Shown in pieces: positions 24,805 to 25,229 of a stretch of 39,281 nt of DNA (the stretch's first letter is position 1; each line of letters begins with the position of its first letter). Location of the stretch: positions 1 to 39,281 of the forward strand of contig JAHEJM010000029.1 of the NCBI GenBank assembly GCA_024638815.1, written 5' to 3'. The stretch is from Acidimicrobiales bacterium (GTDB lineage Bacteria; Actinomycetota; Acidimicrobiia; Acidimicrobiales; SZUA-35). The notes under the pieces are model-generated. The model did no database searches and had not been told where the DNA came from. It saw nothing but the letters and a program-made list of their open reading frames with translations. A program made the position numbers and the translations under genes.

Positions 24805-24854
24805 GGACGCCGAGCACAGGGACCGCCGAAATGGGTAGCAACGGCCGAGGATGC

Positions 24855-24863
24855 TGCTACCAT
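24855..24863 (+). promoter_or_regulatory. Extended -10 promoter for the leuA leader
   Basis: TGCTACCAT contains an extended -10 (TG-N-TACCAT, -10 at 24858-24863). The predicted transcription start, 6-8 bases later, falls on or just before the GTG of the leader ORF at 24871. No good -35 is present. The GGTAGCA (24834-24840) and TGCTACC (24855-24861) inverted repeat covers the element and could be an operator. Confidence 0.45.
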
Positions 24864-24870
24864 CGGGCTC

Positions 24871-24915
24871 GTGCATCGTGAGCTCGACCTTCGACTTCTT
24901 GGCCCGGCCGCTTAA
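24871..24915 (+). CDS. leuA leader peptide, 14 residues
   Basis: GTG at 24871 opens a short frame, MHRELDLRLLGPAA, ended by TAA at 24913-24915. Four of the first ten codons are Leu (CTC, CTT, CTT, CTT). CTT is avoided in the surrounding high-GC genes, where CTG and CTC dominate, so the run is a plausible sensor of charged tRNA-Leu. A hairpin CGCTT-AATC-AAGCG (24909-24922) includes the stop codon. The ORF would be translated from a leaderless transcript, and a ribosome stalled at the Leu codons would change the folding of the RNA downstream. Too short for homology searches to confirm; the argument is context plus codon content. Confidence 0.75.
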   Translation: MHRELDLRLLGPAA

Positions 24916-25229
24916 TCAAGCGCGTCGGGATCAATCAGGTTCGAAGCTCCACACCAGCCTGGGAAGCCGGTCGCCACACCGTTTGGTAACGATGTCGACT
25001 CGGGTGTTCCGCCGGCTGGGATTCGGCCAAGACATCGGGACGGCGAGCTCCGTCCCGGGTAAAGGTCGTGATTTCGATGCCGGATTCACATCCGGTTCAC
25101 GCAGGCCACATGTCGTTCCACATGTGCCCCCAACGACACCCGCGATCCAATGATCACACCTCGGCGTCAGGCAAAGCGCCGCCCGGCCTCAAACCGCAAC
25201 TTCGGGGCCGACAAACCATGGGAGAAGCC
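24871..25229 (+). promoter_or_regulatory. leuA leader RNA (actinobacterial LEU-element type)
   Basis: Between the leader ORF and leuA the RNA has several possible stems. AGCCGG (24965-24970) can pair with CCGGCT (25012-25017), enclosing ACACC/GGTGT (24976-24980 with 25003-25007) and CGTT-TGGT-AACG (24980-24991). CCAGCC (24954-24959) competes for the same 3' strand by pairing with GGCTGG (25014-25019). Further hairpins are CGGGACGG-N6-CCGTCCCG (25036-25057), CCGGAT-TCAC-ATCCGG (25080-25095) and CACATG-N8-CATGTG (25107-25126). None is followed by a U-tract, so control may act on structure or translation. A conserved pseudoknot called the LEU element has been described upstream of leuA in Actinobacteria; I have not shown that this is identical. 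Confidence 0.7.

Follow-up and report, generated by a model that had tools for sequence, protein, structure and literature searches.

A gene for 2-isopropylmalate synthase, leuA, lies at 25230-26909 on the forward strand of the 39,281-nucleotide stretch of Acidimicrobiales DNA analysed here (contig JAHEJM010000029.1; the window), and is presumed to be controlled by the leader in front of it. The gene was identified by NCBIfam models (PRK03739.1 at E 3.7e-263, and TIGR00970 above its cut-off) in the translation from 25221; its start is taken to be ATG 25230, preceded by a Shine-Dalgarno (SD) sequence GGAGA at 25221-25225 on the same strand. Directly 5′ of the leader, the segment 23894-24804 encodes a sigma factor of the ECF class and, with a score under the RsrA cut-off, an RsrA-like anti-sigma factor, and similar sigma and anti-sigma genes are present, adjacency not being counted, in 23 and 24 of 25 motif loci; trpA is found 3′ of leuA on the reverse strand (28787-29788, above the NCBIfam cut-off). 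The leader contains a short open reading frame, MHRELDLRLLGPAA, at 24871-24915 on the forward strand, which has 14 codons from GTG 24871 to the stop codon TAA 24913-24915. As stated in a preliminary description of this DNA, four of the codons are for Leu and three of the four are CTT (CTC 24883, CTT 24889, CTT 24895 and CTT 24898), and CTT is indeed rare in this context, with 7.0% of the 531 Leu codons in the 12 reading frames of the window taken as genes. The stop codon is at the loop of a hairpin, P1 (24903-24929, forward strand; arms 24903-24913 and 24918-24929). The Glu-Leu-Asp-Leu-Arg codons at 24880-24894 form the 5′ strand of a putative base stem, P0, whose 3′ strand, AGGTTCGAAGCTC, is at 24937-24949, both on the forward strand. 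A long spacer (24950-25219, forward strand), in which C exceeds G, extends from there toward the SD.

How widely is this arrangement kept? A DNA search with 24834-25229 in 148 related genomes gave 25 places including the window, all before leuA (L001-L025) and extending from the 3′ part of the ORF through the hairpin; five weaker matches without LeuA (L026-L030) were dropped, and many weaker ones have no locus. LeuA is matched at E 1e-100 in 37 of the 39 genomes of the window's family. The element is present in 36 of the 37 leaders of this family (L001-L025, L055 and L130-L140) and in 11 leaders from four other families of the order (L056-L066), together the 47 leaders referred to below. The family exception is L140, which is without the element, and L139 is counted among the 36 and the 47 as a shifted variant. 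In L139, from family member G015, CGACTT stands in a different frame and leuA starts 39 nt 3′ of P1. Covariance modelling, a check proposed at the outset, bore out the link to leuA: a model built from 39 leaders gave 46 matches of at least 35.7 bits among 397 genomes of the order, never more than one in a genome and confined to five families, the next match being at 27.8 bits; 28 of the 46 were leaders already read, and the other 18, which lay outside the model, were all found before leuA. Outside the order, the best match in 149 genomes of the phylum reached 29.6 bits, and nine such loci hold no LeuA and are therefore taken as chance matches. An exact core pattern occurs in 25 stretches of 84,980 species genomes, largely genomes already read, and 25 of 25 are before leuA; their titles give Acidimicrobiales or Acidimicrobiia, apart from one with Actinomycetes and one with uncultured actinobacterium. 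With Rfam, no match to the leader was obtained at gathering score, three chance matches appearing at E up to 10, and 14 leuA loci (six from other Actinomycetota, four of the terminator type and four with the window's core, type B) likewise had no match. At gathering score, the window as a whole matches Rfam only in a tRNA gene at 17289-17371 on the reverse strand.

Where does the transcript begin? A predicted extended −10 element, TGC TACCAT, is found at 24855-24863 on the forward strand; its hexamer TACCAT (24858-24863), preceded by TGC, ends 7 nt ahead of GTG 24871, and TGCTA is common to 10 of 13 aligned sequences from two genera. A hexamer TANNNT stands 6-10 nt before an in-frame ATG, GTG or TTG in 46 of the 47 leaders (at 7 nt in 25), the only miss being L130, which starts near a contig end. 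The same was true of all 17 held-out leaders that were parsed by script, and L180, inspected by eye, fits as well. In the window as a whole, such a hexamer is 5-10 nt ahead of 32 of 3244 start codons (about 1%), a background counted per start codon, while each leader offered 2.0 in-frame starts on average and five at most. In S. lividans the consensus is TAnnnT and the mean measured distance from the −10 element to the 5′ end is 6.3 nt, according to the accessible part of PMC8079986, which points to the G of GTG 24871 as the predicted first base. The 5′ end is thus predicted to fall at or beside the start of the ORF, and the leaderless start previously proposed is consistent with the spacing of 7 nt in the window. 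It had also been supposed that a leaderless start would be unusual here; this does not hold, since LeuL1 of S. lividans is reported as leaderless in the same part of PMC8079986 and a script places Leu-rich ORFs at leaderless spacing in 24 of 53 leuA leaders of other types within the order.

The short ORF, without whose conservation in relatives the proposal could hardly stand, was found conserved in the 47 leaders. Codons were counted in 63 leaders, i.e., the 47 and 17 held-out ones minus L139. The codon preceding CGA is for Leu in 62 of the 63 and is written CTT, CTC, CTG, CTA or TTA, and the codons two and three further 5′ are for Leu in 56 and 48, with mixed third bases. Since third bases vary while Leu codons are kept, the ORF appears to be coding. 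It should be kept in mind that CGACTT is invariant partly by selection, because the anchor demanded CGACTT or a near form; exceptions are L180 (CGACTC) and L140 (no leader). Among relatives the start codon is ATG, GTG or TTG at a narrow spacing, the stop codon is TAA, TAG or TGA, and L012 has an in-frame insertion of 6 nt within the ORF. The stop codon is located inside P1 in 46 of the 47 leaders (42 at offset 10, three at 13 and one at 7), the exception being L009, in which the ORF ends 3′ of the hairpin. A Leu-rich leader ORF, predicted to be leaderless and tied to RNA structure, as suggested in the preliminary description, is strongly supported by this conservation and by the covariation described below. 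In one genus (L014, L016, L025, L133 and L136), the leader peptides have 28-31 codons, start with MQS or MRS and keep the leaderless spacing, and some of these leaders carry a segment CACAGAAG close to leuA that is complementary to CTTCTGTG of the ORF.

As for the RNA, alignment of the relatives indicates that P1 is conserved and covaries strongly. Its pair probability is 1.0 in the fold of the window leader, and 94.4% of cells are paired over 47 sequences, a figure that falls to 41-47% upon sliding by one column. Seven of the 11 pairs are changed on both sides, a number matched by 36 of 500 shuffles, and the cells with such changes amount to 48 versus 12.4 in shuffles, with none of the 500 reaching as many. 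P0 is supported, but not proved, as a real base stem by various comparisons. In the window its strands pair with a probability of 0.43-0.57. The register 24889-24894/24941-24946 is paired in 87% of cells in 13 sequences from two genera, where one pair covaries with no gain over shuffles, and RNAalifold found five of the six pairs unprompted. If the 40 nt after P1 are shuffled, the mean z is −2.33 for the 13 sequences of the two long-leader genera (Stouffer −8.4, a nominal figure, as related sequences are not independent) and −1.19 for 34 other leaders; for the window's own P0 it is −1.34, with 9 of 100 shuffles equally good. When own partners were compared with swapped ones, none of 20000 permutations was as good for 36 leaders outside the genus, and the effect was weak for 11 genus members (711 of 20000), this comparison having preceded a one-base anchor correction in some rows and the 36 including the long leaders L008 and L012. 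With GC-binned swapping in 49 short leaders, L139 and L130 being excluded, z was −4.4 and again none of 20000 was as good.

The spacer gives a different picture. An alignment of 13 sequences from two genera, the window included, reveals no clear conservation in it. The preliminary description had regarded CCGGCTGG at 25012-25019 as half of a switch between two upstream partners; the octamer and its 6-nt partners (24954-24959 and 24965-24970) do exist, but the switch is not supported. In the folded leader, the CCAGCC/GGCTGG pairing has a probability of 0.99-1.0 and AGCCGG/CCGGCT one of 0.0, and the former barely shifts when the Leu stretch or the stop region is blocked (0.95 and 0.99). The paired segments belong to the part of the 13-sequence alignment without clear conservation, and at least one such 8-mer arises by chance in 103 of 500 Markov-1 simulations of the leader. 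The CCGGCTGG stem switch was rejected on these three grounds, i.e., the unconserved spacer, folding and chance frequency. The further hairpins described earlier sit in the same unconserved spacer, and the whole leader has only a small folding advantage over shuffles (z −1.89, 3 of 100). Another candidate pairing, CTTCTTGGCC with GGCCAAGA at 25026-25033, was set aside; in the window fold, both segments have other partners. The absence of a U-tract, already remarked on, was borne out by a terminator scan of the window leader, in which no terminator-like site was detected, and a downstream intrinsic terminator was accordingly rejected for this leader.

Can the leader ORF influence access to the SD of leuA? 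In the window such covering is not predicted: the predicted accessibility of the SD is 0.74 in the free leader, 0.78 with the Leu stretch blocked and 0.76 with the stop region blocked. In short-leader relatives the partner of P0 is often at the SD. Mean accessibility in 42 short leaders is 0.18 in the free state; blocking the Leu codons brings it to 0.49, and blocking the stop region to 0.17. The Leu block raises it by more than 0.1 in 29 of the 42 and lowers it in one, and the stop-region block raises it in two. For 11 long leaders the values are 0.38 free and 0.45 blocked (three up), the set as a whole omitting ten leaders in which no SD was found and one with N. In these folding models, the rise upon blocking of Leu codons in short leaders fits translational attenuation. 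With GC-matched swapped ORFs, SD covering did not differ significantly from that with own ORFs (0.203 vs 0.178, p 0.13), nor was there an own excess of SD pairing in the best duplex (29 of 42 leaders with an SD found vs 1485 of 2016 swapped). Swapped ORFs cover the SD almost as well because Leu codons are pyrimidine-rich, and in the models the covering in short leaders may be a consequence of pyrimidine-rich codons alone.

What the comparisons of sequences do establish is a conserved coding ORF with its −10 spacing, P1 and its place before leuA. On this basis we consider it fairly probable that the element is a leucine-sensing leader of leuA which would work as follows. If transcription starts at the G of GTG 24871 or beside it, as predicted, a ribosome would load at this end of the transcript without a Shine-Dalgarno sequence. 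When leucine is low, it would slow down on the Leu codons at 24883-24900 and mask the foot of P1 together with the 5′ strand of P0, which would keep P0 from forming. When leucine is ample, the ribosome would come off at the stop codon in the P1 loop, after which P1 and P0 would re-form. Both the stalling and the direction of control are inferred by us. In short-leader relatives, the 3′ strand of P0 adjoins or overlaps the SD of leuA, and thus re-formed P0 would block translation of leuA, namely translational attenuation. In the window, where P0 would be kept, about 270 nt separate it from the SD, and the signal would therefore have to be passed on by another route. A first guess for this output would be premature termination in the C-rich spacer, in which Rho might perhaps take part. 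The best 78-nt spacer segment has a C−G of 0.24, a value reached by 5.8% of window segments of equal length, which lends thin support to Rho.

How do these leaders relate to others in the order? When 68 leuA leaders were classified by a lenient script, L114 at a contig end being omitted, 15 had the window's core, i.e., type B, 50 others had a U-tract terminator-like site, and three had neither; 23 of the 50 also carry a leaderless Leu ORF. Leaders L067-L120 often have a leaderless LLLL ORF, a hairpin directly after the stop and then a U-tract terminator. The terminator type thus resembles the window's leader in the gene and, by script, in having a leaderless Leu leader in about half of the cases, and differs in that its hairpin comes after the stop and is followed by a U-tract terminator. 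In a LeuA tree of 70 rows, of which seven are less than half filled, 51 type-B rows and four f35 rows form one group of 55 with support 100/99. The f35 rows include two terminator-type leaders, L070 with neither the core nor a Leu ORF, and L071, which differs from L070 in carrying a weak terminator-like flag at −224. Judging from their place within the type-B group, the f35 rows appear to have changed later, to a terminator-type leader or to none. In both L070 and L071, LeuA appears close behind another reading frame. It is tempting to generalise that a single leucine sensor has been joined to exchangeable outputs in the order: a terminator in most families, SD covering in the clade that includes the window's family, and a third one in the window's genus, where the sensor would be kept but uncoupled from the SD and would act at a distance, for instance on Rho-dependent termination, over a spacer that changes fast. 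We hold this extension only tentatively and think it doubtful at present.

Could the window's leader itself be a transcription attenuator, in which a Leu leader peptide is combined with an intrinsic terminator, either downstream or in the form of P1 with few U residues? The terminator-like sites in 50 of 53 leaders without the type-B core, as well as the ilvB leader ORFs overlapping terminators in the available part of PMC1262725, speak for such a scheme. Besides, at least five T occur within the 8 nt 3′ of P1 in 9 of 64 type-B leaders (L020, L024, L130, L131, L135, L137, L161, L181 and L185), and because of this short T-rich stretch P1 itself may terminate transcription in that minority of relatives. 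The window is not among them, its P1 being followed by the 8 nt ATCAATCA, and the leader has no terminator-like site. Moreover, 12 of the 15 type-B leaders have no flagged site, and the three flagged ones are diverse: the site is inside the ORF in L052, consists of P1 followed by TTTCTTC in L054, and is unclear in L064. An attenuator of this kind is thus unlikely.

A leaderless start is efficient in Actinobacteria. One may accordingly ask if the ORF boosts leuA simply by loading ribosomes on a leaderless end, without sensing leucine, and the fixed position of the stop within P1 in 46 of 47 leaders would agree with this. The strong synonymous keeping of Leu codons at a leucine gene argues otherwise, and the long spacer of the window speaks against reinitiation, so that we regard this explanation as rather improbable. 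Still less credit is given to the view that the leader is a LEU element whose pseudoknot binds a regulatory protein and whose peptide does not matter. The LEU element, according to the accessible text of PMC1262725 (Seliverstov 2005), comprises a Leu leader peptide, a pseudoknot and a base stem between Leu codons and the SD; the authors favour a protein ligand there, and earlier changes in the leader peptide of S. coelicolor leuA are said to have had some effect, one not in keeping with classical attenuation. The window shares with it the same gene and a similar leader peptide with a Leu run, and a base stem between Leu codons and the SD is possible in short-leader relatives only. In the window this stem is not predicted, the SD being accessible and about 270 nt from P0. 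With 4 nt, the loop of P1 in the window leaves no place for a second helix to start, and most family members have a short loop too; the pseudoknot is consequently absent. Nor would a pure RNA element demand that Leu codons be kept with free third bases. As it lacks the pseudoknot, the window element is classed here with the leucine leader peptides, among which its structure is new, and not with the LEU elements. None of the genomes listed for LEU in 2005 was recognised as Acidimicrobiia, as far as the accessible part of PMC1262725 goes. Finally, a promoter with a chance ORF, conservation being limited to promoter and hairpin, would account for CGACTT (though part of the anchor) and the P1 bases as RNA constraints, but is hardly credible in view of the start codons that vary at a narrow spacing, the varying stop codons, the in-frame insertion in L012 and the synonymous Leu codons.

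The putative leucine-sensing leader may be set beside systems described before. A short conserved Leu-rich ORF before a leucine gene is what known leucine leaders have in common with the window, and the window element probably works like them. Leaderless polycysteine uORFs of cys operons in mycobacteria were reportedly described by Canestrari in 2020. Such uORFs are presented as translation attenuation in the accessible part of PMC13236596; they are likewise leaderless and amino-acid-sensing, and differ in responding to cysteine and in the genes concerned. A close counterpart is LeuL1 of S. lividans, a leaderless, Leu-rich leader peptide of 15 aa before leuA without a Rho-independent terminator, in the available text of PMC8079986. 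Its peptide, however, is MRFGLLLLSCRGEGL, and L128, which by eye has that peptide, shows a longer hairpin layout and not the short one with the stop in the loop. Leaders of other Actinomycetota likewise contain Leu ORFs, several of them spaced as for a leaderless start, and by eye their hairpin is longer. A leu leader of C. diphtheriae is given without a mapped start in the part of the source at hand. No description of such a leader for Acidimicrobiia was found in the titles and abstract openings of a limited literature collection. Within these sources, a terminator-less leaderless Leu leader before leuA is already known from LeuL1, and what is new is the short hairpin that holds the stop codon and leaves no room for a LEU pseudoknot, together with its distribution. 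The leaderless leucine leaders are thereby extended to an uncultured group, and a covariance model is provided for a form unmatched in Rfam. The leaders of the order make up a natural series of similar sensors combined with different outputs at the same gene, and they open a comparison on terminator-less leuA leaders of actinobacteria. Two minor observations may be added. In a fold of the stalled state, obtained for the window only, the released strand of P1 forms a 12-bp pairing with 25069-25080. A possible second promoter near leuA was noticed by eye in two members of the genus.
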